This document shows positions 14,621 through 32,877 of a DNA stretch of 33,694 nt, piece by piece (position 1 is the first letter of the stretch; every line of letters starts with the position of its first letter). The stretch lies in NCBI GenBank assembly GCA_016782825.1, contig JADHXT010000003.1:1-33694 (forward strand), in the 5' to 3' direction. The stretch comes from Candidatus Brocadiia bacterium. GTDB lineage: Bacteria; Planctomycetota; PUPC01; DSUN01. The notes under the pieces are model-generated. The model was not told the origin of the DNA, ran no database searches, and saw only the letters and a list, made by a program, of their open reading frames with translations. The translations under genes were made by a program, and so were the position numbers.

Positions 14621-16408
14621 GTGGCACGTAACGTGGCCTGGGGCATCGACATCGGAGAATCGGCGATCAAGGTCGTCCAGCTCCGCAAGAGTGGCGATTC
14701 GGTCGTCGTGCAAGACCACCGCACCATCGCGTGTGCCGCGCGGCCCGAAGAGGCCCAAGGCGCCGACAAAGACTACCGCATCCGCAATGCCATCGCCACG
14801 CTCCTGGAACAAGTAGACATCAAGGGCACCGTGGTCGTCTCCATCTCCGGCCAGGAGGTGTTTCCCCGCTTCCTGCCGCTGCCGCCGGTGGAGGCGAAGC
14901 GCATCCCCGAAGTGGTGCGCTACGAGGCCCGCACCTCCATGCCCTTCCCCATCGAAGAGGTGGTGTGGGACTACCAGCCCCTCGACGAGCACCCCGAGCC
15001 CGGCGAAGAAATCGAAGTGGCCCTCTTCGCCATCAAGCGCGCCACCGTCTACGGCTATCTGGCCAACCTGCGGCTCGCGCACCTCGTGCCCGATATCCTC
15101 GAGATTGGCCCCCTCGCCCTCTACAACCTGCTGTGCTACGACCGCGACATCGATGTGGGCACCGTGGTCATCGACGTGGGCGCCGGCAACACCGACCTGC
15201 TCATCATCGACGGCGACCGCTTCTGGACCCGCAACGTGTCCATCTCCGGCAACGACATTACCCGCGCGCTTCAGGAAAAGTACCAGATCTCCTTCGAGGA
15301 GGCCGAGCAGCTCAAGCAAAAGGCCGCCGACTCGAAGCAGGCCGAGAAGCTCTTCGGCGTCATGCGCCCCATCGTGGACGACCTGCTCGGCGAAATCCAG
15401 CGGTCCATCGGCTACTACAAAGCCCAGACGCACAACGTGCGCATCGAGCGCGTCATCCTCCTGGGCAATGTGTTTCGCCTCGAGCCCCTGGTGGGCTACT
15501 TCCGCGAGAGCCTGGACGACTACGACGTGGCCCGCATCGGCGGGCTGCAACGCATGCGCGTGGCCGGCGCCGACCCCGCCGAGTTTGCCCCCGAAGTGGG
15601 CAACTACGGCGTGGCCATCGGCCTGGCCCTCCAGGGCCTCGGCCTGGGCCGCGTGACCATCGACATGATGCCGTCGGATGTCATCCGCCAGCGCCTCATC
15701 AAGCAAAAGCTCCCCTACGCCGCCGCCGCCGTGGGCCTCCTGGCCGTGCCGATCTTCCTCGGCTTCGGCTCGGCCGCGAGCGACGTGTCCACCTACGACA
15801 CCAAGGTGAAGGAAGTGGTGCCGAAAATCCAGCGGTACCAACAGCTTGCGGCCGAGGAGAAGAAGGCCGCGAACCTGGAGCCCATGGCCAGCCAGCTCGA
15901 GGCCATCAGCAGCATCGGCCAGGGGCGGGCCGAATGGCCCCTGTACATGAATAGCCTCAACGAGGCCCTCCGTCAGGTGCCACGCAACCGCTTCCTTCTG
16001 CGGCGCATCCTCCACCTGGGCGATGGCACCGCCGCCCCCGGCATGGCGGGCGGAGGAGGGCTCGGACGCGGCGCGCGGCGAGCCCCACGCCCCGCGGCAG
16101 CGGAAGACAAGCTGCAGGAAGACGCCGTGACGCTCCTGCTCGAATTCGAGAGCGACCAGCGCTTCATCGTGGCCGACACCCGACTGCTCGAGCAATACTT
16201 CATCGGGCAGGCCTACGTGCGGAAAGTGGAGTTTGGCGAAGTGCGTCAGATGGCCGGCCAGATGGGCGGCGCGGCCGGGGGCCGCGAGGGCCTGATCCGC
16301 AACGCGGCCGATAGCGTGTGGGTCTCCTCGGTCACCGTCGTCTTCAGCATGCAGCCCCTCAAGGAGAGCCAGCCGTCTGCACCCGACAAGGCCGGCAATC
16401 GCAAGTAG
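14621..16408 (+). CDS. pilM: Type IV pilus assembly PilM-like ATPase with a C-terminal PilN-like TM/periplasmic extension
   Basis: GTG start; WGIDIGESAIKVVQLRKSG, VVSISGQEVFPRFLPLPPVEAKRIPEVVRYEA, VVIDVGAGNTDLLII, YGVAIGLALQGLGLGRVTIDMMP are PilM/SHS2 signatures; TM YAAAAVGLLAVPIFLGF followed by a PilN-like coiled region. Confidence 0.88.
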   Translation: MARNVAWGIDIGESAIKVVQLRKSGDSVVVQDHRTIACAARPEEAQGADKDYRIRNAIATLLEQVDIKGTVVVSISGQEVFPRFLPLPPVEAKRIPEVVRYEARTSMPFPIEEVVWDYQPLDEHPEPGEEIEVALFAIKRATVYGYLANLRLAHLVPDILEIGPLALYNLLCYDRDIDVGTVVIDVGAGNTDLLIIDGDRFWTRNVSISGNDITRALQEKYQISFEEAEQLKQKAADSKQAEKLFGVMRPIVDDLLGEIQRSIGYYKAQTHNVRIERVILLGNVFRLEPLVGYFRESLDDYDVARIGGLQRMRVAGADPAEFAPEVGNYGVAIGLALQGLGLGRVTIDMMPSDVIRQRLIKQKLPYAAAAVGLLAVPIFLGFGSAASDVSTYDTKVKEVVPKIQRYQQLAAEEKKAANLEPMASQLEAISSIGQGRAEWPLYMNSLNEALRQVPRNRFLLRRILHLGDGTAAPGMAGGGGLGRGARRAPRPAAAEDKLQEDAVTLLLEFESDQRFIVADTRLLEQYFIGQAYVRKVEFGEVRQMAGQMGGAAGGREGLIRNAADSVWVSSVTVVFSMQPLKESQPSAPDKAGNRK

Positions 16409-16456
16409 CACCGCCGAGCGCCACGCGGGACCACACTGGTCGAGGAACACAATCCT

Positions 16457-18127
16457 ATGTTATTTCTGAAGAAGCATGTCTTCTGGATGCTCATTGTCCT
16501 CGCCCTCCTGGCCGAAGGGGGCCTCACCTACGTTCTCGTGGGCAAACAGACCGACGCGCGCGCCATGCGCAAGGAGTACGAGCAGAAGAAGCAGCAGCTC
16601 GATACCTTCGAGCGCAAGCCCCCCGGCCAGCCCAAAGTGCTCAAGGCCCTCGGCGAACGTAAGGCCGCCGTCCGCGACGAACTCACCGACTGCCTCCTGT
16701 TCCTCTGGCACCGCGGAGAGGCCCTCGAGCAGCTCTTCGACGACGAGCGTCTCGCCGCGGCCAACGTGACGCCGTGGAGCCGCCACGTGGAAATGGGCAT
16801 GGGCCGCTTCAAGCTCCTCTACCAAAACACCTACGACGCCCACGTCGAGAAGCTCGCGCCCAAGATGGAGAAGGTGCTGATCGGCCGCGAGGCGTTGGGC
16901 CTGGCGCCGAGCAACTTCTTCACACTCACCGACATTCGCATCGGCGATATCTTCAGCGCCCAGAAGAAGTTCTGGGTGCTCAAGGAAATCGTCGACATCG
17001 CCGCCGACTCCAACATGGCCAGCCTCGCCAAGGTGCAGGTCACACGCGAAGCCCTTGATGGACCGGCCCGCGGCCGGGCCGCGCCCACCCGCAAGGGCAC
17101 GCTGCAAAGCGCCGTCAGCGTGCAGCTCATCGTGCGGTGCGAGTACCCCAAGCTCAGCAACTTCGTCGAAAGGCTCCATGCCTCGTCCCTCGGCATCCGG
17201 ATCCTCTCCGTTAACAACATCCAGCGCGCGGCGGGCGTCGCGGCGGCCGGGTCAGAGTTCGCGCCCACGATGCGCGCGCCCCGGATGCCCGGCCCCCCCA
17301 TGATGCCGCGCCCGGGAGGCATGAGCGCGGAACGGGGCCTCGAGGGCGGCGTCGCCATCCCGGGCACCCCCCGCCGCCCCATCGCCCCTGGGGCACCGGG
17401 CATCGTCCCCGCGGAAGTGCCTGTGGCCGCGCGCAGCGCCAAGGCAGGCGAAGTGGTGCGGCAGCTCGTCGAGGCCCAGATCCTCTGCGAGGTGCCCGAC
17501 GTCAATCTCGATATCTACCAGGTGGCCTTCAGCAAAGCCGCCTTCCCCAAGAAGTCCGACGTCAAGAAGTGGGCCGAGCAACAGGTGGCGGCCGCGGAGG
17601 CCATCCTGCTGCGAGCCAAGACCACTCGGGCGGCCCGATGGGCCGACGCCGCCATCCAGAAGCTCCCCGCGCCACCGCCCGAGAAGGCCGCCGAGCCAGG
17701 CAAGGCCGCCGCTCCAGCAGCGGCCACCAAGCCTCACACTCTCGTGGCCTACCCGGGCACGCCGTACGAGCGCGAGTATGTCGTGAGCGACCCGGCCCTG
17801 GCCCGCACGTGGCTCGCGAACGTCGCCAGCTACGAAGTGCTCCACGTGCGGGCACTCAAGGCCTTCTGGGAGTACGTGTTGGCCGCGCTCGGCACCGAGC
17901 GCACCAGCACCCGCGACGGCGTGGTCATCACCTTCCGCGACAAGAGCCACTTCGACGCCGACGCAGCCAACATGTATGAGCAGACCCTCACCGTGGCACT
18001 TGTCAAGCCAGGCACGCCCAGGAAGGCGAGCAAGCCGCGGCCCGTAACCGTCAAGTTCGGCCTCGCAGTCTTCACCCCTGACGAAAGCGCCAGAGGCCAG
18101 CAAATCTGGAAGGGGTTCGAGCGCTAG
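16457..18127 (+). CDS. Single-TM envelope protein, possibly PilO/Amuc_1100-like
   Basis: ATG; N-terminal TM FLKKHVFWMLIVLALLAEGGLTYVLV then a coiled coil; position directly after PilM/N; internal Pro/Gly/Met-rich linker MRAPRMPGPPMMPRPGGM. Confidence 0.55.
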   Translation: MLFLKKHVFWMLIVLALLAEGGLTYVLVGKQTDARAMRKEYEQKKQQLDTFERKPPGQPKVLKALGERKAAVRDELTDCLLFLWHRGEALEQLFDDERLAAANVTPWSRHVEMGMGRFKLLYQNTYDAHVEKLAPKMEKVLIGREALGLAPSNFFTLTDIRIGDIFSAQKKFWVLKEIVDIAADSNMASLAKVQVTREALDGPARGRAAPTRKGTLQSAVSVQLIVRCEYPKLSNFVERLHASSLGIRILSVNNIQRAAGVAAAGSEFAPTMRAPRMPGPPMMPRPGGMSAERGLEGGVAIPGTPRRPIAPGAPGIVPAEVPVAARSAKAGEVVRQLVEAQILCEVPDVNLDIYQVAFSKAAFPKKSDVKKWAEQQVAAAEAILLRAKTTRAARWADAAIQKLPAPPPEKAAEPGKAAAPAAATKPHTLVAYPGTPYEREYVVSDPALARTWLANVASYEVLHVRALKAFWEYVLAALGTERTSTRDGVVITFRDKSHFDADAANMYEQTLTVALVKPGTPRKASKPRPVTVKFGLAVFTPDESARGQQIWKGFER

Positions 18128-18180
18128 CCGCCGGCACCGTTGCCGGGCCGCACGTCTCGCACCGTCGAAGGGAATCGTTT

Positions 18181-19890
18181 ATGAGCCTCCAGGGCATCAA
18201 AGATGTGGCCTTCCACCACGGCGAGAAGGTCGTGCTGGGAGCCGTCCTGATCTTCGTCGGGCTCAACGCATACAGCCACTTCACCGGTGGAGAAGAAGGG
18301 GCGGGGGGCGTCGGCCCCATCGATATCCGAGGGGCCGACGGCGTGTCCAGAGCCATCGACCCCGCGTTCGTCCAGGCCGCGCTCCCCTACGTGGAGCCCG
18401 TCGAGATCGCCACCCCACGGCGCACCCCCTTCTGGGCCCCCATGACCGTCTTGCTGCCCCCGATCGCCGATCTCCAAGAAAAAGAGAACACCAAGGCCAC
18501 CCGCAAGTGCGGCTCCACCATCGTAGGCAGCCCGCGGCTCGTGCCGCTCACGCCCGCCGAGCAGAGGGCATACATGCCCCGCGGTGCCACGGGCCAGCCG
18601 TGCGAGGTGAACGTGGGGGTGGACCCGAAAGCCAAGGACACGCTGACGTTCGAGGTCGTCCGCCACGGCCATTGGGTGGCGTACGAAGCGCTGCTGGCCA
18701 ACGAGAACAAGTGCCGCGTCCTGGTCAAGGCGGCCCGCGCCGGCATCGTGTATGGCGACCGCATCGTGATGCCCACCGTCGATGCCGAGCCGTGCAAGGA
18801 AGAGAAGCTTGGCCTGGTGGTCCTGCGCTTCAAGCAGCCACCCAAGCCCGAGACACCCGAGGACGATAACGCCACCACCATCATCCGGTGGCATCTGGCC
18901 ACGGAGTACCGCATCTACCGCCAGAGCGAGTTTGACGAGAAACGCATCCTTCTCGCACGCCTCTCCGCCCAGGGCCGCCGCGGCACCGTCGACCCCGTCG
19001 GCCGCCGCACGCCGCGTGCTCCGGCCGGCTACCCGGGCGGCTACCCCGGCGCCCCGCCAGGAGGCCGGCCCGGCGTCTCCCCCGAAAGGGGAGCCGAGGG
19101 CCTCGTGCCCATCCGGCCCGGCGCGGTGCGGCCGGGCGCCGCGGTGGAAGAGCGCAGGCCCGCCGAAGCCGAGGCTGCGAAGGAAGGCGAGTACATCTAC
19201 TCCGACCGCACGGTCGAATCCGAAATGCTCTACCGCTACTGGATCGAGGCTTTTACCACCATAGCCGTGGGCGACGGCCCGTCCAAGGAGCTCAAGGAAG
19301 AGCTCGAGCCCTTCCGCGTCCGCACCAAGCAGAAGTTCTCTTTCAGATACGTGGGCGGCACCTACGACAAGGCCCACATCGTGGTCTACATCGGCCAGCC
19401 CATCCCCGAGTCCAACTCGAGGACCTTCCAGGTGCCGATCGGCGCCCGGATCGGCGACCTGCCTCTGGCCGAGACGCCGGAGACGCCAGCCGCCACCGAA
19501 CCCCGGCCTGGGGCCGAATCCATCGAGACGGCCAAAGGCGATCCCTTCGAGTTCGTGACGCGCTACGTGCTCGTGGACATCATCCCTGACGCCTATCGCG
19601 TCGTGCCCCACGAGCGAGCCGTCTCGCGTCGCGACGAGGACGGCAAAGTGGTCTTCATCAAGGAAACCGTTCTGCGCGAGGAAGTGGCCCGACAGATCAT
19701 CATCCGCGACCGAAAGAACCGCCTGTTGACCTTGTGGTACGAGCGCCCGATCAGGACGGCGCCGGCCAAGCCCAAGGCCGACCGACGGCCAGGATACCCG
19801 CCGACTCCCCGCCCACGCACCCCGCGGCGACCGGCTCCCGGCCTCAGGCCACGCCCAGACATGCCCGAGCAGCCTAGAGTCATCCGGTAA
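18181..19890 (+). CDS. Single-TM envelope protein of unknown function with Pro-rich linkers (pilus-cluster accessory)
   Basis: ATG; EKVVLGAVLIFVGLNAYSHF TM; GYPGGYPGAPPGGRPGV linker; C-terminal RRPGYPPTPRPRTPRRPAPGLRPRP; collinear with the pilM block. Confidence 0.55.
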   Translation: MSLQGIKDVAFHHGEKVVLGAVLIFVGLNAYSHFTGGEEGAGGVGPIDIRGADGVSRAIDPAFVQAALPYVEPVEIATPRRTPFWAPMTVLLPPIADLQEKENTKATRKCGSTIVGSPRLVPLTPAEQRAYMPRGATGQPCEVNVGVDPKAKDTLTFEVVRHGHWVAYEALLANENKCRVLVKAARAGIVYGDRIVMPTVDAEPCKEEKLGLVVLRFKQPPKPETPEDDNATTIIRWHLATEYRIYRQSEFDEKRILLARLSAQGRRGTVDPVGRRTPRAPAGYPGGYPGAPPGGRPGVSPERGAEGLVPIRPGAVRPGAAVEERRPAEAEAAKEGEYIYSDRTVESEMLYRYWIEAFTTIAVGDGPSKELKEELEPFRVRTKQKFSFRYVGGTYDKAHIVVYIGQPIPESNSRTFQVPIGARIGDLPLAETPETPAATEPRPGAESIETAKGDPFEFVTRYVLVDIIPDAYRVVPHERAVSRRDEDGKVVFIKETVLREEVARQIIIRDRKNRLLTLWYERPIRTAPAKPKADRRPGYPPTPRPRTPRRPAPGLRPRPDMPEQPRVIR

Positions 19891-19906
19891 CCGATGGAGA
19901 ATCGGG

Positions 19907-19935
19907 TTGACCCATCCCGTGTATTCCGCTAGAAT
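19907..19935 (+). promoter_or_regulatory. Candidate sigma70-type promoter for the secretin sub-operon
   Basis: TTGACC (19907) - 17 nt - TAGAAT (19930). Confidence 0.55.
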
Positions 19936-20017
19936 AAGCCCTGCTTTTCACCTTGCCAGCCGCACAGGCTCCTCCGATGTCAGGAGGCGTCCCTGCGACC
20001 ATGAAAGGAGGCGTGGT

Positions 20018-22501
20018 GTGCCTGCGCCGAATGCCCACCGATCCCCCGAAGCTGCCCTGAGCTCGCCCATGCGACGCACCGCTGCCCTCGTGCTGGGAGG
20101 GGCGCTGCTCCTGCCGCTGTTGCTTGCGGCCGCGGCGCGAGCAGGCGATGCCGATCGGCTGGCGCAAGTGCGGCAGAAGGCCATGGCCTCCGACCAGGAA
20201 AAGCAGCGCCAGTTCAGCATCCTCCTCGATCAAGGCCGCCATTTCCTCCAGAACAACGACTACGAACAAGCCGGCCGCGTGCTCGCGCAGGCCGCACGCC
20301 TCCGCCCCGACGACGCCACCTGCCGCCGCCTTGTCGCCGAGGCCCGCACGGGCCTCGCCTCCGCCGCCAAGCCCGACGAAATCCTCGACCGCGCGAGAGC
20401 CAAGTGGCAGGGACGCAATGCCACGCTCCGCCGCGAGCTCGACCAGAGCCTCTTCGAGGCCGAGCAAGCCCTCCACAAAGGGCAGGTCGCACGGGCCAAG
20501 CAGCACGCCCGTCTCGCCCTCCACGGCGCTACCTACATCAAGGACGCCGCCGTCGTCAGCGAGTTCCGCTCCCGCGCCGAGCGCATCCTGGCCACCGCCG
20601 ACAGCAAGGCCAGCGGCACCGCAGCCGCCCAGCGGCAGGCCGCACTCGACGCCAAGCGCAAAGCCGCCCGCCACCAGTCCTCCGACGCCCTGCGCAGCGT
20701 GCGCGAGCGCGGCTGGGCCCACCTCGACAAAGGCCAGCACGTCCAAGCCCTTGTGGCCGCCGACGAGATGCTCCGTCTCGCCCCCGGCAACGAGCAGGCC
20801 CTCTTCCTGAAAAACGAGGCCCTCAAGGCCAAAGACAAGGCCGAGGGCGTCGAAGTGGCCCGCAAGGAACGCAAGGAACTCCGCGACGACCTGCTCCTGC
20901 GTCAGCTCGAGCAGGAAACCACCCTGCCGAAGGACATCCTGGAGGAGAAGGTCGTCCTCTCGGACAAGGCCATGCGCCAGAAGCACAGCGTGCACCGCCG
21001 CTCCATGGAGCCCTGGGAGCAGCGCCTGCGGGCCAAGCTGCGCGACCGCATCACCTTCGAGTTCAACGAGAGCTCCGTCACCGAAGCCTGCCGCTACCTG
21101 GCCGAAGTCACCGAGAGCACCATCCTCGTCGACCCCGCCGTCGCCAAGAGCGAGAAGCGTCTCACCCTGCCGAAGCTCAAAGACCTCACCTTCGACCACG
21201 CCCTCAAGTGGGTGTGCCGCTTCTGGGACGCCACCTACGTCGTGCGCGACCACGCCATCCTCGTCACCCGCCGCGGCGGCCAGCTCAACGAACCCATCAT
21301 CCGCGACTACGACGTGGCCGGCCTCCTCATGCCCCTCCGCAGCATCCGCACCACACTCGACAGCAGCACCCAGCTCGACGACACCGGCCCCCTGCACAAG
21401 CTCACCACCAACGGCAAGCTCGATGTCAAAGACGAGCCCATCACCAAGGGCGCCATCGGCGAGGGATGGGCCGACTTCATCCGCGCCTCCGTCGCCCCCA
21501 ACACCTGGGACAGCGGCAGGGCACGCACCCTCCAACAGCAAGTCCCCCGCTACACCATCCAGTACCGCAACGGCCGCATCGTGGTCGTCCACACCCCCGA
21601 AGTCCACGAGCAGATCGCCTCGCTCCTCGAAAACTACCGCCGCGCCCGCAACCTCCAGGTGCACATCCTCGCCCGCATCCTCAACATCGAGATGGACTAC
21701 CTCCAGCAGATCGGCGTGAACTTCCCCGGCAACCTCGGCGACCCCGATGATCCCGCCGACGACACCTTCGGCTATTTCGACCCCCGCGAGGCCCCGCCAA
21801 ACAACCCCAACCGCAACTGGCAGCGCTGGGAGATTGCCGCCAACATCGAGCACTCGCACGGCGTCGGCGAGATCCCCGAGAGCTTCAGCGAGCCCGTGGG
21901 CGGCATCCTCGTCCGATACCACTACCTCAACCACACCGACGTCACCGCCATCCTCAACGCCGTCATCAAGCACCGCAAGGGCACCCTGCTCATCGCGCCC
22001 CGTCTCACCTGCTTCAACACCCAGCGGGCCAACTTCCAGGCCCTCACCAACTACAACTACGTCCGCTCCATCTCGAGCGACGAAGAGCCCGAGATCGGCA
22101 ACGTCCCCGACGGCATCATCTTCGACGTCCAGCCCTTCATCAGCGCCGACCGCCGCAACATCACGCTCGTCCTCCAGCCGCAGCTCCGCGTGCTGCGCGG
22201 CTTCCAGTCCTTCTCCTACATCAACTCGCTCACGGGCACCCGCGACCGCTCCGTCCAGCTCCCCACCACCGAGCTCACCAGCATCGCCACCACCGTCACC
22301 GTCCCCGACGGCGGCTCGCTCATCGTCGGCGGCCTGGGCCGCGTGGTGGAAAACGCGGGCTACGCCTCGCTGCCATTCTTCTATGCCGTGCCCGGCGTTC
22401 GCTATCTTCTCCGCGACCGGCGCGACGCCGAGCGCCGCACGAGCCTCAACGTTCTCGTCACCGCCGAGATCGTCAAGGACATCTTCGAGGATGGCCAATA
22501 G
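20018..22501 (+). CDS. Secretin (type II/III/IV pilus family) with N-terminal TPR-like region, copy 1
   Basis: AAAGGAGG SD before GTG 20018 (ATG 20069 is the alternative); hydrophobic leader RRTAALVLGGALLLPLLLAAAARA; STN-like ITFEFNESSVTEACRYLAEVTESTILVDPAV; secretin core DGIIFDVQPFISADRRNITLVLQPQ...VPTTELTSIATTVTVPDGGSLIVGGLGR. Confidence 0.88.
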   Translation: MPAPNAHRSPEAALSSPMRRTAALVLGGALLLPLLLAAAARAGDADRLAQVRQKAMASDQEKQRQFSILLDQGRHFLQNNDYEQAGRVLAQAARLRPDDATCRRLVAEARTGLASAAKPDEILDRARAKWQGRNATLRRELDQSLFEAEQALHKGQVARAKQHARLALHGATYIKDAAVVSEFRSRAERILATADSKASGTAAAQRQAALDAKRKAARHQSSDALRSVRERGWAHLDKGQHVQALVAADEMLRLAPGNEQALFLKNEALKAKDKAEGVEVARKERKELRDDLLLRQLEQETTLPKDILEEKVVLSDKAMRQKHSVHRRSMEPWEQRLRAKLRDRITFEFNESSVTEACRYLAEVTESTILVDPAVAKSEKRLTLPKLKDLTFDHALKWVCRFWDATYVVRDHAILVTRRGGQLNEPIIRDYDVAGLLMPLRSIRTTLDSSTQLDDTGPLHKLTTNGKLDVKDEPITKGAIGEGWADFIRASVAPNTWDSGRARTLQQQVPRYTIQYRNGRIVVVHTPEVHEQIASLLENYRRARNLQVHILARILNIEMDYLQQIGVNFPGNLGDPDDPADDTFGYFDPREAPPNNPNRNWQRWEIAANIEHSHGVGEIPESFSEPVGGILVRYHYLNHTDVTAILNAVIKHRKGTLLIAPRLTCFNTQRANFQALTNYNYVRSISSDEEPEIGNVPDGIIFDVQPFISADRRNITLVLQPQLRVLRGFQSFSYINSLTGTRDRSVQLPTTELTSIATTVTVPDGGSLIVGGLGRVVENAGYASLPFFYAVPGVRYLLRDRRDAERRTSLNVLVTAEIVKDIFEDGQ

Positions 22502-22573
22502 CCTCTCTGCTGCACGCCGTAGCGGGCCGCCGCACCCCTGCGCGGCAGCCGGCTCACCGAAGGAGACCCACAC

Positions 22574-25069
22574 GTGAGAGCCTGTTCCCCGCATGACCGC
22601 CGGCGCATCGTCGCCACCGCCCGGCTCATCGCGCTCCCTGCCCTCGTCCTGGCCCTGTGGCTGCCGCTGCCAGCCAGGGCGGAAGCCGCACCCGCCCCCC
22701 AAGGCGCCTCGCAGCTCCAGCAGCAGGAAGCCGCGCTGCTCCTCGCGCGCGGGCGCCATCTGCTCGCGCAGGGAGAGATCGGGCAGGCCCTCGCCGCGCT
22801 CCGCAAGGCCGCGCGCCTCGACCCTGAGAATGCCACGTGCCAGCGCCTGGTCGCCCAGGCCGAACGCGCCGCCCGCATGGGCAGCCTGCCTTCCAGCGCC
22901 AAGCCCATCAAGGAACAGTACGCCGCCCGCGCCCGCTCCATCGTTCGCCAGGCGGAGCACTCGCTCTTCGACGCAAAGAAAGCCCTCGACGGCAAGGACT
23001 ACGACCGCGCCGCCCAATACGCCCAGCGCGTGCTCACGGCCATCCGCTACCTCGATGGAGCCGAGCGCGGCGCCAAGCTCCGCGCCAGCGCCGAAAGCAT
23101 CCTCGCCAGCGCTCGCAGCGCGATGGAACGCGACCGCAGCCATCAGCGTCAGCTCGACCTCGAGAAGGCACGAGCCGACGGAGCCGCCGCCCGCCGCGAG
23201 CGCAACAGGGAAGCGCCCGGCGTCACCTCGCTGCGCTCCAAGGCACGCAAGCACCACCTCGACGGCGAGTACAGCCTGGCTGCCGAAGTGGCGCGCGAAG
23301 TGCAGCGCCTCGCCCCGGACGACGAAGAGGCCAAGGCCATCGAGGAACGCGCCCTCGAGGTCGGCAAAGGCCCCAAGAGCCTCGCCGGGCGCTCCAACAC
23401 ACGCGCGCGGCGCGAGGACGACCTGATTGCGTCGCTCGAACGCGAGGCCACCCCGCATCCCGACGGCAAGATCGTCCTCCCCGGCAAGGCCAAGGCCAAG
23501 GCCGTGGCCAGCGCCGGCGTGCGCCGCAAGCCGATGGAAGCGTGGGAACGCGAGCTGCGGGCCAAGCTCGAAGAAGAAGTGAGCATCGACTTCAAGCAGA
23601 CCCCGCTCGAGGACTGCGTGAAGCAGCTCGCGGCCATCGGCAAGGTGAACATCGTGCTCGACCCCGCTGCCGCGCGCGAAACGCCCATCACCATCGAACA
23701 CACCCGCATGCCGCTCGACGCCCTCCTGCGGTGGGTCGCGCGCTTCGCCAGCCTCCGCTACTGCGTGCGAGACGGAGCCGTGCTGCTCACCACCGGCCAC
23801 GGCGCCCTCGACGAGCCCGTCCGCCGGGTCTACAACATCACCTCCCTCGTCATACCAGAAGACGACGCCGTGCCCACGGCCATCATCGACGCCTCCATCG
23901 GCATGGCCGGCCCTGTGGAGCCCATGCCCAAGCGGCGGGTCGAAACGAAGCCCACCGAAGTGAACACCGACGGCCTCGGCGAGGGCTGGGCCAGCTTCGT
24001 GCGCGACACCGTGGCCCCCGGCACCTGGAACGTGGGCTCCCGCACCCTCCAGGAGCAAGGCCCCCGCTACACCATCCAGTACCGCAACGGCCGCATCGTG
24101 GTCGTCCACACCCCCGACGTGCACGAGCAGATCGAAGAGCTCCTCAACAACTTCCGCCGCGCGCGCAACCTCCAGGTGCACATCCTCGGCCGCTTCCTCC
24201 AGGTGGAGCAGACCTTCATCGAGCGGCTTACCCTCGGCAACGCCCAATGGAGCGGCCCCGCGGCCAACGGCCCCGGCCACGACCCCGCTGGCGGCAAGCG
24301 CTATGCCTTCACCCCCATCGAGCTTACCAACGACACCAACGTCGTCCGCGCCATCGCCGACCCCCTCGACCCCACCGCGCCCTCCATCGAAGCCCCGCTG
24401 GCTCGCTTCGCCAGCCTCAACGCCGATGGCGGCCTCGCGCTCAGTTGGGACTATGTGGGCGTGTTCGGCCACAACGCCCAGGCCCTGCTCAACGCCGTGC
24501 TCAAGAAGCAGAAGGGCACGATCCTCTCCGCGCCGCGCCTCACCTGCTTCAACACACAGCGAGCCAACATCCAGGTGCTCGTGAACCGCAACTACGTGCG
24601 GCGCATCAGCTCCGACGAAGAGCCCGAGATCGGCAACGTGCCCGAAGGCATCATCTTCGACGTCCAGCCCTTCGTGAGCGCCGACCGCCGCTACATCACC
24701 GTCGTCCTCCAGCCCCAGCAGCGCGAGCTGATCGCCATGACCAACTACAGCTTCAGCACCGGCCTCGAAGACATAGACGTGGACGCCGGCTTTGGCCTCG
24801 TGGCCCTCACCGGCCGCACCGTCCAAGTGCCCACCACGCGCCTGCGGTCCCTCGGCACCACCGTCACCATCCCCAACGGCGGCACCCTGATCGTCGGCGG
24901 CTTCAGCGAGGTGGAAGAACGCACCGGCGTTGCCAGCCTGCCCTTCATCGAGGCCATCCCTCTCCTCGGAAAGATCATGCGTGGCTTCGACAACGCCGAA
25001 GGCCGCCGCAGCCTCATCTTGCTCATCACAGCGGAAACCGTCCAGGACGTCTTCTCCCCGGAGGAGTAA
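22574..25069 (+). CDS. Secretin with N-terminal TPR-like region, copy 2 (tandem paralog)
   Basis: GTG with AAGGAG SD; VSIDFKQTPLEDCVKQLAAIGKVNIVLDPAA, EGIIFDVQPFVSADRRYITVVLQPQQ, VPTTRLRSLGTTVTIPNGGTLIVGGFSEVEERTGVASLPFIEAIPLLG. Confidence 0.9.
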   Translation: MRACSPHDRRRIVATARLIALPALVLALWLPLPARAEAAPAPQGASQLQQQEAALLLARGRHLLAQGEIGQALAALRKAARLDPENATCQRLVAQAERAARMGSLPSSAKPIKEQYAARARSIVRQAEHSLFDAKKALDGKDYDRAAQYAQRVLTAIRYLDGAERGAKLRASAESILASARSAMERDRSHQRQLDLEKARADGAAARRERNREAPGVTSLRSKARKHHLDGEYSLAAEVAREVQRLAPDDEEAKAIEERALEVGKGPKSLAGRSNTRARREDDLIASLEREATPHPDGKIVLPGKAKAKAVASAGVRRKPMEAWERELRAKLEEEVSIDFKQTPLEDCVKQLAAIGKVNIVLDPAAARETPITIEHTRMPLDALLRWVARFASLRYCVRDGAVLLTTGHGALDEPVRRVYNITSLVIPEDDAVPTAIIDASIGMAGPVEPMPKRRVETKPTEVNTDGLGEGWASFVRDTVAPGTWNVGSRTLQEQGPRYTIQYRNGRIVVVHTPDVHEQIEELLNNFRRARNLQVHILGRFLQVEQTFIERLTLGNAQWSGPAANGPGHDPAGGKRYAFTPIELTNDTNVVRAIADPLDPTAPSIEAPLARFASLNADGGLALSWDYVGVFGHNAQALLNAVLKKQKGTILSAPRLTCFNTQRANIQVLVNRNYVRRISSDEEPEIGNVPEGIIFDVQPFVSADRRYITVVLQPQQRELIAMTNYSFSTGLEDIDVDAGFGLVALTGRTVQVPTTRLRSLGTTVTIPNGGTLIVGGFSEVEERTGVASLPFIEAIPLLGKIMRGFDNAEGRRSLILLITAETVQDVFSPEE

Positions 25070-25096
25070 CGGCGCCAGCCGGCGCCGCACGCAGCG

Positions 25097-28000
25097 ATGA
25101 AACGTCTCCGTTACACAGCTCTCCTCGTCGCCCTCTCCGTCGCTTCCAGCGTCCATGCGGCCGGCACGTGGGAGCGCCAGATCGAGTTCGCCAAGAAGCT
25201 CGCCACTCTCCAGTACTACGACATCGCCGATATCGTGCTCGCGCGGGTCGAGCAGAGCCCCAACCTCATCGGCATTCTCAAGGCCAACGCACTCCGGCAG
25301 ATCGGCGACTACTACAGCTTCATCGCCTCCGGCGTCGCCGCCACCCAGGCCGGTCTCCAGGGCTACATCGACTCCCTCGAGAAGGCCAGCGAATACTACA
25401 AGAAATACATCGCGCACCGCTCGCCGAAGCGCGAAGACCGCTTCGACGCGCGCATGCAGCTCTCCCGCGTCTCCCTCGCCATCGCCGAAGCACACCTCCA
25501 GATCTACCGCGACTCCCGCACCGACAAGGCTGCCAAGGAAGCCCACAAGAAGAAAGCCCTCGAGATCTTCAAGAGCGCCCTGGCCCAGTTCCAGACCGCC
25601 ATCGACGCCAGGGGCAAAGAGGTCGAGGCCAAGAAAAAGCAGAAGCCCAAGGACATCAAGGCCACCAAGGCCAAGGCCGAGTGGCAGAAGCAATACGACG
25701 CCATGCGCATCGAGTACTTCCGCGTGCAGCTCGAGCACCTCAACGCCCGCGTCCGCTACGCCAAGCTACTCAAGGGCTTCGGTGTGGCCGCAGCGGAGTG
25801 GCAGGCCGAGCTGGCGCGCAGCAGCTCCGCCTACACCAGGCTGCTGCTCGACTTCGCCAACAGCCCCGGCGAAACCCAGGCCAATCTCTACCTCGGCATC
25901 TGCCTCATGGAGCAGGGCACCCAGAAGCACAAGGACGCCCTCCTGCGGTTCGAGACCGTGTGGCGCAAGAAGGAGATGTTCGAGCAGTACCGCCGCATCG
26001 CGTGCGAGGCCGCCTACTGGACCGCCGTCATCCAGAGGAGCCAGAAGAAGTTCGACGACGCCATCAAGACCATCGACGGCCTCGTGGAGTTTGCCTCCGA
26101 CGGCGCGTGGGACATGGAGAAGCAGCCGCGCACCGTCGAGAAGATCATCGAAACCCTCACCGAGCTCGAAGGCGCCGACCGCGACCAGTACACGCAGAGG
26201 GACGTGGCCAGGACCTTCCTGCTCCAGGCCGAGTGCTTCGCCGACAAGGCGGCCGACAAGAAGACCCCCGCCGGCGAGAGCAAGAAGCTCTACGGCGCGT
26301 CGTTCGACGTAGCCAACGCCGTCGGCCAGGTGCGTGGCCTGCGCGACCCCAAGTATGCCCCCCTCATGGAGAAATGGCGCCGCCTGGCCGGCCGGGGCCG
26401 TGTTCCCGTGGTCATCCTCCAGCAATACAAGAACGCCCTTCTCAAGAGGCAATACGTCCGCGCCGCGCGCCTCTACACCGAGCTGATCGGCCAGGGCGCG
26501 GTCAAGAAGCAAGATCTGCGCGACGGCTGGTTCACCGTGGGCCAGTGCTACTACGCCGGCGAGCGCCACTACGAGGCCGGCATCTGCTTCAGCGCCGTGA
26601 GCAAGTGGTACCCCGAGCCCGTCGGCAAGGCGCTCGAGGCCGCCCGGGCCGCCGTGGGCGCGCAGCACAAGCAGGCCGAAGCCACCAAGAGCGACTTCGA
26701 CAGCGCCTTGCTCGGCCGCTACCGCATCGCCGCCGAGAAGCTCGACCCCCTCGGCACGGCCGGCGTCACCATCCGCCGAGCCAAGGAACACCGCCAGAAG
26801 GGCCAGTTCGACCAGGCCTTCGCACTCCTCGCCCCGATCGACCCGCAAAACAAGGCCTACGCCAACGCGCTGTACGAAATCGCCCTCACGCACAAGGCCC
26901 GCTTCGAGAAGCTGCCGGCCGACCGCAAGACCAGCATCGCCGGCAAGAAAGCCCTGGGCGAGATGCTCGCCGGCTTCCAGAAGCTGCTCGACTACTACCG
27001 CACCGCGGCACCCAAGCTCACGGGTGAGGCCAACGCCGAGGCCCGCGGCCGCCTGGTCGCCGTCGTCGGCGCCGGCCTCCTCATGCTCGCCGACTCCTAC
27101 ATCCGGCCCTACCTCAACAACCCCAAGAAGGTGATCGAGCTCACCGACGACCTCGAGAAACGCTACCCCGGCATCGAGAAGACCCCCTCCGCCAGCGCCC
27201 TCTACATGAAGCGCATGCACGCCGCCTACGTGGTGATCACCCAGGCCAAGACCGCCGCCGAGGCCGTGCCCGTGCTCGGCATCGTGGAGGAAAGCTGGAA
27301 GGCCGTCCGCAAGTTCCCCGACTTCCAGTTTCTCGACCGCGCCGCCAGCATCGGCGCCTACTCCTACCTGAGCGTGGCCTCGAAGTATGACGAGGAAGCC
27401 AAGAAGCTCGCCGACGCCGCGGCCAAGAAGCAGCTCGCGGACAAGGCCGCTCAGGCACGCTACCGCGCCGTGGCCTTCTATGTCGAGCTCCTCCGCTCCT
27501 CGCCCAAGCAAGAGCTCAAGATATACCGCTACGTGCTCCAGACCCTCAAGTCGGGCGGCAAGGCCGAGGACTACAAGACCATTATCGAGCTGGCCCCCAA
27601 GGCCATCGCCCTGTACGGCCGCAGCCGCCGGTCCTTCGCCGACGTGCTGCTCATCCGCGGCATCCTCGGCCACGCCCATTACGGCCTGCGGCAATACGCC
27701 GAAGCCATCCCCTACCTCAGCGCCGTCGAGACGTACCACGAGAAGGCCTACCAGGAAGCACGCAGGAAATACGAAGAGCAGAAGGCCGCCTACGAACGCG
27801 ACCCCGGCCGGTTCCGCCGGGCCCCCAGCCCCCCGCGCCGCAACGCCGCACAGCCCGACGCCAAAGAGAAGCTCGCCTTCTGCTATCTTGCCAGCAGCCA
27901 GCGCGACAAGTACGAATGGCTCGAACGAGCCTACAACGACCTGCTGCGCATCTATGCCAGCAAACCGGAGAAGTTCTGGATCATCCGCTACAACCTCTGC

Positions 28001-28219
28001 GAAACCTACCGTCGCCGCGACAAGCACGGCGACGCCATCAAGCTCATCGACCGCTTCCACATGCGCGACTCGGGCATGGGCGGCTCCGCGAGCAAGGAGC
28101 GCTTCCGGCGTCTGGTCGGTCTCATTCGGAAAGACATCGACAAGCTCGACGACGCCAATCTGAAGGCCACGCTCAAGCTGCTGGCCGACGAGCTCTACAA
28201 GCGGCTGAACGCGCGCTAG
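25097..28219 (+). CDS. Large secreted/periplasmic TPR-repeat protein
   Basis: Signal peptide MKRLRYTALLVALSVASSVHA; helical repeats rich in A/Y/L such as GQCYYAGERHYEAGICFSAVSKWYPE and ILGHAHYGLRQYAEAIPYLSAVETYHEKA. Confidence 0.8.
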   Translation: MKRLRYTALLVALSVASSVHAAGTWERQIEFAKKLATLQYYDIADIVLARVEQSPNLIGILKANALRQIGDYYSFIASGVAATQAGLQGYIDSLEKASEYYKKYIAHRSPKREDRFDARMQLSRVSLAIAEAHLQIYRDSRTDKAAKEAHKKKALEIFKSALAQFQTAIDARGKEVEAKKKQKPKDIKATKAKAEWQKQYDAMRIEYFRVQLEHLNARVRYAKLLKGFGVAAAEWQAELARSSSAYTRLLLDFANSPGETQANLYLGICLMEQGTQKHKDALLRFETVWRKKEMFEQYRRIACEAAYWTAVIQRSQKKFDDAIKTIDGLVEFASDGAWDMEKQPRTVEKIIETLTELEGADRDQYTQRDVARTFLLQAECFADKAADKKTPAGESKKLYGASFDVANAVGQVRGLRDPKYAPLMEKWRRLAGRGRVPVVILQQYKNALLKRQYVRAARLYTELIGQGAVKKQDLRDGWFTVGQCYYAGERHYEAGICFSAVSKWYPEPVGKALEAARAAVGAQHKQAEATKSDFDSALLGRYRIAAEKLDPLGTAGVTIRRAKEHRQKGQFDQAFALLAPIDPQNKAYANALYEIALTHKARFEKLPADRKTSIAGKKALGEMLAGFQKLLDYYRTAAPKLTGEANAEARGRLVAVVGAGLLMLADSYIRPYLNNPKKVIELTDDLEKRYPGIEKTPSASALYMKRMHAAYVVITQAKTAAEAVPVLGIVEESWKAVRKFPDFQFLDRAASIGAYSYLSVASKYDEEAKKLADAAAKKQLADKAAQARYRAVAFYVELLRSSPKQELKIYRYVLQTLKSGGKAEDYKTIIELAPKAIALYGRSRRSFADVLLIRGILGHAHYGLRQYAEAIPYLSAVETYHEKAYQEARRKYEEQKAAYERDPGRFRRAPSPPRRNAAQPDAKEKLAFCYLASSQRDKYEWLERAYNDLLRIYASKPEKFWIIRYNLCETYRRRDKHGDAIKLIDRFHMRDSGMGGSASKERFRRLVGLIRKDIDKLDDANLKATLKLLADELYKRLNAR

Positions 28220-28241
28220 ACACGACGAGGAGACGCGACCC

Positions 28242-29315
28242 TTGAAGCTCCACATCCGCCCCGCCACGAGCTGGTGCCTGCTGGCCGGCCTGCTCGTCAC
28301 CCTGGCTGCCTCTGGCGCCCAGGCCGCGAGCACCATCTACCGCGACGAGATCTACCTGCGCGGCCAGGAAGACAAGCCCATCGTCACCAGCATCACCGCC
28401 GACACCATCAAGGAAATCAAGGCTGGCGGCGCCGTCTTCAACCCCCTCGGCGTCCTGCGAGTCGTCTACTCCGGCGCCCCGCAGGGCTACCGCAACGCCG
28501 AAGCCCACAGGGAAAGCGGCCGCTTCGAGGAAGCCCTCACCGGCTATCAGACCACCCTGCGCAACCTCACCGACAAGGACCGCAAGTTCTGGCTCGAGCC
28601 CCACTGCCGCTACTACATCGCCGAATGCTACCTCGAGATGGGCGATCTGGCCAGGGCCGAGGCCGCCTACACGGAACTTCTCGACAAGCACCCCGACACA
28701 CGCTTCAAGCCCGACGCCATGATGGGCCGGGGGCGCGTCAACTACGAGGCCGGCAACTTCGCCGCCGCCGAGCGCCGCTTCGACGACCTCGAGGTCTTCG
28801 CCGCGAAGGCCAGCTGGCCCGTGTGGCTCTACGAGGCCTATGGCTGGAAGGCCCGCTGCCTCCGCAAGCAGAAGGCATACAGCAAGGCCCTCGATTACGT
28901 CCGCAAAGTGATCGTCGCCCCCCCGCGGAAGTACGAAGACATCATCACCCTCGCCCGCACCGAGGAAGCCCTCATCTACGTGGACCAGGGCGAGTACGAC
29001 AAGGCCGCGGGACTCCTCAACAAGCAGATCGACCGCATCGCTCCCTCGGTGGACAAGGGCGCGCGCTTCGCGCGCATGGAAGCCCAATGCAAGAACGCGC
29101 TGGGCAACTGCTACCTGAAGCGGTTCGAGAAGAGCAAGGACAAGAAAGACCTCCAGGAAGCCCTCATCGGCTTCCTATGGAACGTCACGCTTCACGTCGG
29201 CTTGCCCGAGCGCACCGAAGCTCTCACCAAGGCCGCCGCGTGCTTCGAACAACTGGGACAGAAGACCCGCGCCGTCGAGCTGCGGGATGAACTCCAGGGC
29301 AAAGAGCCCAAGTGA
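28242..29315 (+). CDS. Secreted/periplasmic TPR-repeat protein
   Basis: TTG start after GAGGAG; signal peptide WCLLAGLLVTLAASGAQA; TPR units such as EAHRESGRFEEALTGYQTTLR and IAECYLEMGDLARAEAAYTELLDKHPDT. Confidence 0.8.
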   Translation: MKLHIRPATSWCLLAGLLVTLAASGAQAASTIYRDEIYLRGQEDKPIVTSITADTIKEIKAGGAVFNPLGVLRVVYSGAPQGYRNAEAHRESGRFEEALTGYQTTLRNLTDKDRKFWLEPHCRYYIAECYLEMGDLARAEAAYTELLDKHPDTRFKPDAMMGRGRVNYEAGNFAAAERRFDDLEVFAAKASWPVWLYEAYGWKARCLRKQKAYSKALDYVRKVIVAPPRKYEDIITLARTEEALIYVDQGEYDKAAGLLNKQIDRIAPSVDKGARFARMEAQCKNALGNCYLKRFEKSKDKKDLQEALIGFLWNVTLHVGLPERTEALTKAAACFEQLGQKTRAVELRDELQGKEPK

Positions 29316-29363
29316 GCAATCAGGACAACCCTCCGGCCGCGAAGAGGAGAAGGAGAAGACGAC

Positions 29364-30242
29364 GTGAACGTAAGGAAATGGACGATTCTGTCGCTCGCAC
29401 TCGTTGCAGTCGTGCTTGCCGTCGGCCTGTGTGTGTCGCACAGCATGGCCACTGCGGCCGAGGCCCCGCCGGCGGCGCCACCCGCTGCGCCCCCGGCCGA
29501 GGCCCCGGCGGCCCCGCCGGCCGCCCCGCCAGGCGCGCCGCCGGCGGTGGCACCCACCACGGCTGCCGCACCGGCCGCCACACCCCCTGCCGGCGGCGAA
29601 GCTGCCCCGCCTGCCACGGCCAAGACAAAGCGCACCGTCCTCCAGACGATCAACGCCGGTGGCCTCATCGGCTACGTCATCATCGGCCTCTCCTTTGTGG
29701 CCCTCTCGCTCATCATCGAGCACGCCGTGAGCATCCGCCGCGACAAGCTCTGCCCCGACGAGCTGGCCCAGGAACTCGAGGACTACTTCAACCAGGAGCA
29801 GTACGAGGAAGCCCTCGAGCTGTGCAACGTGGAGAAAAACCTGCTGACCGACGTGGTGCGGGCCGGCCTGTCGCGCATCGACTCCGGCTACGAGCGCATG
29901 CAGGAAGCCATGCAGGAAGCCGGCGAAGAATCCTCCGTCGCCCTCCAGCAGAAAATCAGCTACCTGTCGCTCATCGGCAACATCTCGCCCATGCTCGGCC
30001 TCCTCGGCACCGTGAGCGGTATGGTCAAGGCCTTCGGCACGATCGCCACGATGACCAACGTGAAGCCCGCCGTCCTGGCCGGCAGCATCAACGAGGCCCT
30101 GGTCACCACCCTCCTCGGCCTCACCGTGGCCATCCCCGTCATGTGCGCCTTCCAGTTCTTCTCGAACCGAGTCACACGCATCGTCCTCGAGTCCAGCACC
30201 ATCATTTCCGACATGATGGAGCGGTTCAAGCCGGCCAAGTGA
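29364..30242 (+). CDS. exbB: MotA/TolQ/ExbB-family proton channel protein with signal peptide and Pro/Ala-rich N-terminus
   Basis: GTG with AAGGAG SD; GYVIIGLSFVALSLIIEHAVSI, LSLIGNISPMLGLLGTVSGMVKAFGTIA, INEALVTTLLGLTVAIPVMCAFQFF are classical ExbB/TolQ TMs. Confidence 0.92.
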   Translation: MNVRKWTILSLALVAVVLAVGLCVSHSMATAAEAPPAAPPAAPPAEAPAAPPAAPPGAPPAVAPTTAAAPAATPPAGGEAAPPATAKTKRTVLQTINAGGLIGYVIIGLSFVALSLIIEHAVSIRRDKLCPDELAQELEDYFNQEQYEEALELCNVEKNLLTDVVRAGLSRIDSGYERMQEAMQEAGEESSVALQQKISYLSLIGNISPMLGLLGTVSGMVKAFGTIATMTNVKPAVLAGSINEALVTTLLGLTVAIPVMCAFQFFSNRVTRIVLESSTIISDMMERFKPAK

Positions 30243-30310
30243 GCCGAGCGCGGTAACCCGCTCGGCCTCGCCCCACGGGCGCGAGGGCCGGGCCCGGAGG
30301 CTTGCCCCGT

Positions 30311-30814
30311 ATGCACATCAGCACGCGGAAACGCATCAAAGAGACCGATCTGAACATGACGCCCATGATCGACGTCGTGTTCCTGCTCATCACCTTCTTC
30401 ATGGTCGTCACCGAGATCACCCGCCAGGACGACATCGCCGACCTCCAGCTCCCCGACGTCGCCGCGGCCACTATCGATGACAACCCCGACCCCGAACGGC
30501 TGATCATCAACATCAAGAAGACCGGCATGGTCTATGTGAGCGGCGCCGAGTACAACCTGGCGAACCCCGCCGACACCAACCGGGTGAAAAACCTGCTCTG
30601 GACCGAGGCACGGATCAGCCGCAGCCCGGCCACGGGCTCCGCCAATCGTGTCGTCCTTGTGCGAGCCGACAAGCGCACGCCGTTCAAGTACGTGCGCAAG
30701 ATCATGCAGCTCTGTGTGGACCGCGATATCGGCATCTGGCGCCTTGCCTTCGGCACCCTTCCCTTCCAGTCCCGCGAAGCGAAGCTCAAGGCCGAGGGCA
30801 AGACCGGACCCTGA
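30311..30814 (+). CDS. exbD: ExbD/TolR-family biopolymer transport protein, copy 1
   Basis: ATG 10 nt after GGAGG; LNMTPMIDVVFLLITFFMVVTEI with conserved Asp in the TM. Confidence 0.9.
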   Translation: MHISTRKRIKETDLNMTPMIDVVFLLITFFMVVTEITRQDDIADLQLPDVAAATIDDNPDPERLIINIKKTGMVYVSGAEYNLANPADTNRVKNLLWTEARISRSPATGSANRVVLVRADKRTPFKYVRKIMQLCVDRDIGIWRLAFGTLPFQSREAKLKAEGKTGP

Positions 30815-30845
30815 ACCGCCCCACTCCGACCAGGAACCCGCGACG

Positions 30846-31295
30846 ATGAAACCCTCTGACTCTGAAAAAAACGCCGTCAAGAAAGCGGAGCTGTCGCTCA
30901 CGCCCATGATCGACGTCGTGTTCCTCCTCCTGATCTTCTTCATGGTCGGCATGAAGTTCAAGGAGTTCGACCGAAAACTCGAAGCCGACCTGCCTCGCGC
31001 CGGGGAGCCGCCCAAGGACGAGCCGCCCGAGCTCGTCGACGAAATCTGGGTGCGCATCGACGACCAGAACAAGGGCCGCGGCGGCCCGGCCACCCCCAGA
31101 ATCGTCGTCGACCAGGTGGTCATGCGCAACTGGGACCACACCTTCAGCACCCTCGAACGCCTCGGCCGAGCACCGCAGGCACTCAAGGACCCCGTGATCC
31201 TCGACCCCACCGACGCAGCTCACACGGGCTGGGTGCTCAAGATCATGGACTACTTGCGCCTGCTCAAGTATCAGAACATCAACTTCAAGCAGTGA
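30846..31295 (+). CDS. exbD: ExbD/TolR-family biopolymer transport protein, copy 2
   Basis: LSLTPMIDVVFLLLIFFMVGMKFKEFDRKLEADLP; periplasmic domain VVDQVVMRNWDHTFSTLERL. Confidence 0.9.
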   Translation: MKPSDSEKNAVKKAELSLTPMIDVVFLLLIFFMVGMKFKEFDRKLEADLPRAGEPPKDEPPELVDEIWVRIDDQNKGRGGPATPRIVVDQVVMRNWDHTFSTLERLGRAPQALKDPVILDPTDAAHTGWVLKIMDYLRLLKYQNINFKQ

Positions 31296-31343
31296 CGGGG
31301 TGCGCCCAGAGCATGCCCCACCCGTCACGCCGACGGAACTGCG

Positions 31344-31370
31344 GAGCCGGCCCTCAAGGGCCGGCTCTTT
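31344..31370 (+). terminator. Terminator-like hairpin between exbD copies 2 and 3
   Basis: gagccggccc-tcaa-gggccggctc-ttt: perfect 10-bp stem, 4-nt loop, short T run. Confidence 0.7.
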
Positions 31371-31469
31371 GCATGACGGCCACCGACGCAAGCTTCCTGG
31401 CCCAAGACGGGTAGAATCCTGCAGATGGCCAGTGTCGCCGGCCCCCCCGCCCTGCTTGGAGGAAGAACC

Positions 31470-31895
31470 ATGCGCGTGCTGCGGCCACGTCAGAAGCCCG
31501 AGGCGCGTCTTTCCATCACGCCCATGATCGACGTCGTGTTCCTCCTCCTGATCTTCTTCATGGTCGGCATGAAGTTCAGGGCGTTCAACCGGAAGCTCCC
31601 GGCCGAGCTACCTCGCGCTGGAAAGGCGGATTTCGGCCACGAAGTCTGGGTGCGCATCGACGACAGGAACAGGGGCGGGGGCGGAGAGCCCAGCCCCAGG
31701 ATCGCCGTCGACCAAGTGGTCATGCGCGGCTGGGACCACACGTTCAGCACCCTCGAACGCCTCTCCCGAGCACCAGGGGCGCTCAAAGACCCCGTGGTCC
31801 TCGATCCCACCGACGCGGCTCATACAGGGTGGGTGCTGAGGATCATGGACTATCTGCATCTGCTGGGCTACTCGAACATCAACTTCAGGCAGTAG
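31470..31895 (+). CDS. exbD: ExbD/TolR-family biopolymer transport protein, copy 3
   Basis: ATG with GGAGGAAG SD; LSITPMIDVVFLLLIFFMVGMKFRAFNRKLPAELP; closely similar to copy 2 over its full length. Confidence 0.9.
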   Translation: MRVLRPRQKPEARLSITPMIDVVFLLLIFFMVGMKFRAFNRKLPAELPRAGKADFGHEVWVRIDDRNRGGGGEPSPRIAVDQVVMRGWDHTFSTLERLSRAPGALKDPVVLDPTDAAHTGWVLRIMDYLHLLGYSNINFRQ

Positions 31896-31976: not shown

Positions 31977-32804
31977 TCAGCGGCGGGCGTTTCGGCGCTT
32001 GCTCTGGTCGGTGAGAAACTTGCGCTCGCGCGCGCTCAGGCCATCGAAGCCCTCGCGAGTGATCTTGGCCAGAATCTCGTCCAGCCGGTCGTCGTCGCGC
32101 GAGCGTCGCTTCTGCTGCTTGCGCGCCTGCCGGGCGGGCAGGGCATCGAAGTAGCGCTCCACCGACCCTCCGTAGCGCCAGTAGAGCCAGGCGAACAGCG
32201 CGCCGCCCAGGTGAGCGGCGTGGGCCACGTCGCCGCCGTAGGCGCCGATGGCCCCGAGCACGTCGATGCCGATGATCAGAGCCGCGGCCCACTTCAGGCG
32301 GATGGGGAGGATGAAGAACAGCAGGATCGTCTGGTTGGGATAGCGGATGGCATACCAGATGAGCACCGCGATCACGGCCGCCGACGCGCCCATGGCGATG
32401 CCCCGCTCGCCAAACACATACTGCATCACGCAGAAGGCGAGGCCACCGGCGACGCCGCCGCCGAAGTACAAAGTGAGAAACCGACGCCGCCCCAGCAGGG
32501 CCTCCACCTGCGTGCCGAAGGCATACAGCACATACATGTTGAACACGATGTGCCAGATCCACGCCGGGTCGTGGAGGAACATGTAGGTGAACACCTGCCA
32601 CACCCACAGCTTCTCGACCACGAGGCTGGCGCGCAGCCCCAGGGCGAAGCCCAGGTGAACCCGCGCCGTGGCCCACACCAGGATCTGCACCACAAACACC
32701 GTGATATTGGCAATCAAGAGGAGCTTGATGGTGGAGGCGGGACGGCGGAGCGGCCCCTGGCCGTCGAGGTAGGCCGAATGGCGATAGCCACCGCGGTCGC
32801 GCAT
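31977..32804 (-). CDS. Rhomboid-family intramembrane serine protease
   Basis: HIVFNMYVLYAFGTQVE, active-site GASAAVIAV, HAAHLGGALFAWLYW; C-terminal DRLDEILAKITREGFDGLSARERKFL tail typical of rhomboid proteins. Confidence 0.9.
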   Translation of the reverse strand: MRDRGGYRHSAYLDGQGPLRRPASTIKLLLIANITVFVVQILVWATARVHLGFALGLRASLVVEKLWVWQVFTYMFLHDPAWIWHIVFNMYVLYAFGTQVEALLGRRRFLTLYFGGGVAGGLAFCVMQYVFGERGIAMGASAAVIAVLIWYAIRYPNQTILLFFILPIRLKWAAALIIGIDVLGAIGAYGGDVAHAAHLGGALFAWLYWRYGGSVERYFDALPARQARKQQKRRSRDDDRLDEILAKITREGFDGLSARERKFLTDQSKRRNARR

Positions 32805-32877
32805 CACACGTGGCCCTCTGCCGAAAGGGCAGCGACCTGTCTCGGGACAGGCCGACACAGGTCGAGGGGGAGGGGAG

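Follow-up and report, generated by a model that had tools for sequence, protein, structure and literature searches.

The window analysed here is a stretch of 33,694 nucleotides from a Candidatus Brocadiia bacterium (contig JADHXT010000003.1), whose draft genome is 2.89 Mb long and 61% complete. It contains a run of eleven plus-strand genes at 14621-31895, with gaps of 16-129 bp between the open reading frames (ORFs), in which a PilM/secretin half is followed by a TPR-ExbB-ExbD half. Judged from gene order, a single predicted operon joining both halves is kept across many families of Planctomycetota. The first half is the Planctomycetota counterpart of the Amuc_1098-1101 (MUL2) locus of Akkermansia. 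We believe that the block encodes a trans-envelope secretin machine driven by the proton-motive force (PMF), which would most likely capture large polymers and import them into the periplasm, and we give this reading about an even chance. The eleven genes and their families had been named in a preliminary description made from the DNA alone, and the ORF positions and the Pfam and NCBIfam searches bore them out. The promoter and genes are as follows (TM, transmembrane segment; aa, amino acids; pLDDT, predicted local distance difference test).

14491-14518, plus strand: predicted sigma-70 promoter, TTGACA-16-TATAAT, 12 of 12 matches, ending 103 bp ahead of the pilM start.
14621-16408, plus strand: gene 1, PilM-N fusion, 595 aa, with an actin-like PilM domain, a TM at 364-382 (hydropathy) and a periplasmic tail.
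16457-18127, plus strand: gene 2, Amuc_1100/PilO-like protein, 556 aa, with an N-terminal TM, a coiled coil and two alpha/beta domains (AlphaFold2 model).
18181-19890, plus strand: gene 3, protein at the Amuc_1099 position, with an N-terminal TM, a beta-rich periplasmic part and a proline-rich C terminus; low-confidence model (mean pLDDT 49.6).
19907-22501, plus strand: gene 4, secretin 1 with N-terminal TPR (Pfam Secretin, E=1.9e-18).
22574-25069, plus strand: gene 5, secretin 2 with N-terminal TPR (Pfam Secretin, E=4e-19).
25097-28219, plus strand: gene 6, large helical-repeat (TPR-like) protein, 1040 aa, with a signal peptide and no Pfam match.
28242-29315, plus strand: gene 7, TPR protein, 357 aa, with a signal peptide and CpoB/YbgF-like repeats (TPR_16, E=4e-15).
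29364-30242, plus strand: gene 8, ExbB/TolQ with an Ala-Pro-rich N-terminal extension (MotA_ExbB, E=2.9e-29).
30302-30814, plus strand: gene 9, ExbD1, proton Asp 24 (ExbD, E=5e-21, over the cut-off).
30846-31295, plus strand: gene 10, ExbD2, proton Asp 23 (ExbD, E=3e-15, over the cut-off).
31425-31895, plus strand: gene 11, ExbD3, proton Asp 36, with a TPMIDV motif and weak TolR/ExbD matches.

Of 61 relatives, 60 had a PilM homologue. In 40 genomes, a stretch of about 20 kb surrounding the best match was read, and 78 named secretin matches supplied further neighbourhoods; these matches came from a scan that used a single short motif and took one genome for each GTDB species. Among the secretin matches listed in that scan, almost all were labelled Planctomycetota. 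These data gave 64 distinct PilM loci, of which 17 were too short, leaving 47 informative loci. ExbB lay downstream of PilM in 30 of them, and 17 had no ExbB within the sequence first read. ExbB and ExbD of G002 and G005 appeared in the next stretch read, which brings the linked loci to 32 of 47; the window is a further case. Linkage was counted per locus, with some loci coming from close relatives and many genomes being drafts. In linked loci, ExbD nearly always accompanies ExbB. The usual order is PilM, Amuc_1100-like gene, gene 3, secretin, TPR1, TPR2, ExbB and two to four ExbD genes, often followed by a second secretin, and in several relatives secretin genes flank the ExbBD genes on both sides. 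With the order found again in over 30 other loci, chance does not explain the linkage. The neighbourhood survey that the preliminary description had proposed thus supported its pairing of the two halves. Several genomes without the linkage carry a separate TPR-TPR-ExbB-ExbD-ExbD module elsewhere, which is clear in G047, G049, G052, G056, G059 and G031 and weaker in others; we count this in favour of the reading as one machine. In two relatives, the flanks of the block were unrelated housekeeping genes, with no adhesin or pseudopilin genes there, so the block has sharp borders. The linked loci are spread over the entire block-type clade of the PilM tree, whose deep forks are open; this is no more than suggestive of an old association of both halves with repeated separation.

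The number of genes in the block varies. Three successive secretin genes follow PilM in L064 and L067, and four ExbD genes follow ExbB in L197. A planctomycete-type block was also seen in L074 (DYIT01000006.1, labelled Candidatus Kuenenia stuttgartiensis) and L151 (QNYK01000063.1, labelled Bacillota), where the labels may be wrong.

The promoter ahead of pilM is the sole 12 of 12 sigma-70 match in the region. A match of at least 11 of 12 was found no more than 250 bp upstream of PilM in 16 of 63 distinct loci, compared with 2 of 630 dinucleotide shuffles. Such matches stood upstream of 1 of 55 ExbB genes and of none of the TPR2 genes (0/94) or gene 2 counterparts (0/43). They preceded 5 of 139 secretins, and a second promoter may therefore exist at the secretins of some loci. 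The only plus-strand terminator-like site within the block is a weak one, at 27459. The promoter matches are evidence for one principal transcription start, which would lie at pilM; this is short of proof of co-transcription.

Gene 1 matched PilM_2 in Pfam (E=1.2e-32), scored over the cut-off of TIGR01175 in NCBIfam and matched the PilM structures 3jc8 and 2ych in the PDB (E about 1e-27). Its PilM domain is followed by a PilN-like motif, VTIDMMPSDVIRQ, a C-terminal TM and a periplasmic tail, and it is therefore a PilM-N fusion. The match of gene 1 to the Amuc_1101 family NF045709 (E=1.2e-66, 226 bits) was under the equivalog cut-off of 650. The AlphaFold2 model of gene 2 had a mean pLDDT of 58, with 70-90 in the folded portions. 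Amuc_1100 crystal structures were its nine top Foldseek matches (best E 8.3e-4), and PilO came next. The Amuc_1100 sequence model gave E=0.005 only, and the gene 2 profile found no match among PDB sequences; the kinship came from the fold search. No significant Pfam family was assigned to genes 2, 3 and 6. Relatives of gene 3 gave profile matches to titin-type FN3 domains, a lead that comes from these relatives. Some of them also match EF-hand-like calcium-binding models, and two gene 3-like genes stand in tandem in L119 (2271-4653).

In gene 4, the signal peptide probably starts from the ATG at 20069, and the matches to the MshL, PilQ and Amuc_1098 models were under the cut-off. Counterparts of gene 6, recognised by position and sequence, are 950-1400 aa long. 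Gene 7 matched tol_pal_ybgF at 2.4e-12, also under the cut-off. An ORF at 29312 was rejected as ExbB, being in the wrong frame relative to the true gene at 29364-30242. Long antisense ORFs (e.g. 19880-25738 on the minus strand, 1952 aa) were dismissed as shadows of the true genes caused by high GC content.

The gene order of the first half is that of Amuc_1101-1100-1099-1098. Both loci have a PilM fusion of the Amuc_1101 family, an Amuc_1100-like fold, a single-TM protein at the Amuc_1099 position and a secretin with N-terminal TPR. In contrast to the Akkermansia locus, the block scores below the NCBIfam equivalog cut-offs, its secretins are doubled, and TPR, ExbB and ExbD genes follow in the same operon. 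The secretin Amuc_1098 is abundant in the outer membrane and has N-terminal TPRs (PMC4960237), a plan shared by the secretins of the block, which match the Amuc_1098 model weakly. A role in attachment and transport has been described for MUL2 (amuc_1099-1102), which includes PilM and Amuc_1100, and A. muciniphila is said to need mul genes to take up polysaccharides (PMC13174399). No description of a PilM-secretin-ExbB/ExbD operon was found in the open-licence literature. The preliminary description had put the machine forward as a candidate for an undescribed one, and this appears to hold for the joined operon only. The first half matches Amuc_1098-1101, and TPR-TolQ-TolR-TolR clusters have been noted in the Planctomycetes-Verrucomicrobia-Chlamydiae (PVC) group (PMC12204202). 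Both modules are thus individually known in this group, and their union in one operon appears to be undescribed.

With the alignment complex of the type IVa pilus (PilMNOP-PilQ), the block shares PilM, a PilN-like tail, a PilO-like fold and a secretin. It differs in having no PilB/PilT, PilC or prepilin in the operon, in its added proton motor and in its PilM. The canonical PilM of the phylum (350 aa) forms its own clade (support 100/100) apart from every block-type PilM. In the block-bearing genome G019, a separate region of 20 kb holds a canonical pilM-N-O set together with a PilT-like gene and PilB. The genome of the window itself encodes another PilM-type protein (G000:C277, L152, 1094-2302), about 600 aa long and strongly diverged, with a single-TM gene adjoining it and no ExbBD seen on the contig.

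No PilB/PilT-like ATPase was found in any block locus examined, where the positive control worked, and no block gene matched PilC or prepilins, with the flanks of two relatives being unrelated. The absence of PilB and PilC noted in the preliminary description is true of the window; both are encoded elsewhere in the genome. Since the PilB (T2SSE) and PilC (T2SSF) families occur in 61 of 61 genomes, genome-wide absence of PilB was dropped as an argument. The earlier proposal that a proton channel takes the place of a traffic ATPase is weakened to that extent, and it keeps the support of the linkage, the block's own promoter, the ATPase-free locus, the separate PilM clade and the proton-path residues.

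The motor genes keep these residues. T216 and T249 of ExbB align with the pore threonines of TolQ (8vlw/8odt), and each is invariant in 54 of 54 relatives. The proton Asp of ExbD is invariant in 124 of 124 relatives, and the TPMIDV proton motif is common to all three ExbDs of the block. ExbB-ExbD-TonB and TolQ-TolR-Tol-Pal share such ExbB and ExbD homologues; the block differs from them in having no TonB, TonB receptor or TolB. TonB_C was missing from 17 of 61 genomes and TonB receptors from 17 of 61. Five block-bearing genomes (G007, G008, G018, G025 and G029) had neither, which rules out ExbBD as an energiser of TonB. No TolB match was obtained in 57 of 61 genomes and the other four gave weak matches only; with TolB essentially absent, Tol-Pal was ruled out as well. 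As TonB, its receptors and TolB can all be missing, the motor belongs to neither the Ton nor the Tol system.

The near absence of TolB may mean that a substitute is needed, and this bears on a structural alternative. Secretin rings would be tied to the inner membrane as press-stud junctions, for example in crateriform structures, while ExbBD and the TPR proteins would tension the outer membrane in the manner of Tol-Pal, without transport. The CpoB/YbgF-like gene 7 and an ExbB nearest to TolQ models fit this explanation, as does the apparent fastening of the cytoplasmic membrane to the wall by crateriform structures (PMC5394234). In every system characterised, however, the secretin is a gated channel, two or three secretins per locus exceed what an anchor needs, and the closest relatives with a characterised role have links to glycan use. 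We consider such an anchor quite unlikely.

In the PVC group, a published survey reported TPR and tolQ-like genes together with paired tolR-like genes and a vWA transducer (PMC12204202). The block resembles these TPR-TolQ-TolR-TolR(-vWA) clusters in its row of a TPR gene, a TolQ-like gene and several different TolR-like genes, and differs in being joined to secretins and a PilM base. No vWA transducer was matched among the block genes scanned. A motor of the TolQR type is also combined with periplasmic TPR proteins in the Agl-Glt system of Myxococcus, whose outer-membrane and base components differ from those of the block. By analogy with this same class of parts, the motor could move TPR cargo for gliding, or protein or polysaccharide could be exported through the secretins. 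To our knowledge, Agl-Glt does not use PilM/PilO-type bases or secretins of the block type, and the blocks checked have no adhesin or pseudopilin genes beside them; a motility or secretion machine of this kind seems improbable.

For the PMF-driven import machine, we propose the following arrangement. PilM-N, placed in the cytoplasm and inner membrane, would make up an inner-membrane base together with gene 3 and the Amuc_1100/PilO-like protein, similar in kind to the alignment complex of type IV pili. The secretin would form an outer-membrane gate above this base, and the TPR proteins would span the periplasm. Motion would be proton-driven and come not from a PilB-type ATPase but from an ExbB pentamer and its ExbD subunits, the latter probably paired as heterodimers drawn from the three paralogues. 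The job of the machine would be to capture large polymers at the surface and then import them into the periplasm. The data show the parts, their order and conservation, the operon structure with its promoter, the conserved motor residues and the kinship of the first half to Amuc_1101/1100/1098. We infer from them that the motor works on the secretin or on its base; physical coupling of motor and secretin, the direction of transport, the substrate and any identity with crateriform structures are likewise inferred.

Several observations lead us to favour import. Carbonyl cyanide m-chlorophenyl hydrazone (CCCP) abolishes dextran uptake into the periplasm in Gemmata (PMC5394234). In the same study, crateriform structures link the outer and cytoplasmic membranes and carry dextran-binding fibres, and the uptake system was called uncharacterised. 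Uptake of chondroitin sulphate by Planctomycetes has been ascribed to an "unknown mechanism" (PMC5520146). Finally, the nearest kin of the block use glycans. In a broader and more doubtful version, the proton-motor secretin machine without a traffic ATPase would build the crateriform structures and import polysaccharides and proteins, with the mucin-uptake system of Akkermansia as its sibling. The route by which intact macromolecules enter planctomycetes and the make-up of crateriform structures are both stated to be open questions (PMC5394234, PMC5520146). For these questions, the operon offers a defined gene set, a PMF source fitting the CCCP sensitivity and a link to the glycan-uptake locus of Akkermansia. 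If the import machine is real, a secretin machine would be run by a proton channel and not by a cytoplasmic ATPase, and a puzzle of cell biology would become testable gene by gene.

Several points weigh against the import machine. The CCCP evidence is weak because CCCP collapses every PMF-dependent process. The uptake experiments used other planctomycetes. A pilin-like Amuc_1102 gene was not seen beside pilM in the window and two relatives, though no Amuc_1102 profile was used to look for it. PilB and PilC, encoded in all genomes, could act in trans. ExbB was not near PilM in 15 of the 47 informative loci. PilM, secretins and ExbBD modules are scattered in two closed genomes, G031 and G056, and the linkage is thus less than universal.

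The PilB and PilC families in all genomes and the 15 loci without linkage favour the explanation that two neighbours share an operon. An Amuc_1098-1101-type pilus or secretin system would be driven in trans by PilB, and the TPR-TolQ-TolR genes would form an envelope-maintenance module. This would leave unexplained that diverged lineages throughout the PilM clade keep the same order, that the promoter stands only before pilM, that secretins lie on either side of ExbBD in several relatives and that no block locus has an ATPase. We therefore regard it as unlikely and prefer the import machine. In G031 and G056 (L059, L065, L201-L204, L211 and L212), the dispersed genes comprise a block-type PilM, secretin open frames of 1560-1710 aa and ExbBD modules.

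Other features of the window were recorded. The block is followed by a rhomboid gene on the opposite strand (31977-32858). A short near-identical repeat tract at 12560-12660 (translated QSQIANRQSPIANPQSQIANRKSPIP) lies between DHH-type and flavodoxin-reductase-like genes. At about 8650-8852, a small plus-strand ORF resembles a HicB antitoxin (MKIEIEREEDGRWIADIPELPGVLAYGQGRDEALAKAKAL...). The minus-strand gene at 9099-10514 encodes a metallo-beta-lactamase-fold protein that resembles the hydrolase domain of ComEC-type DNA-uptake proteins, as recognised by eye.

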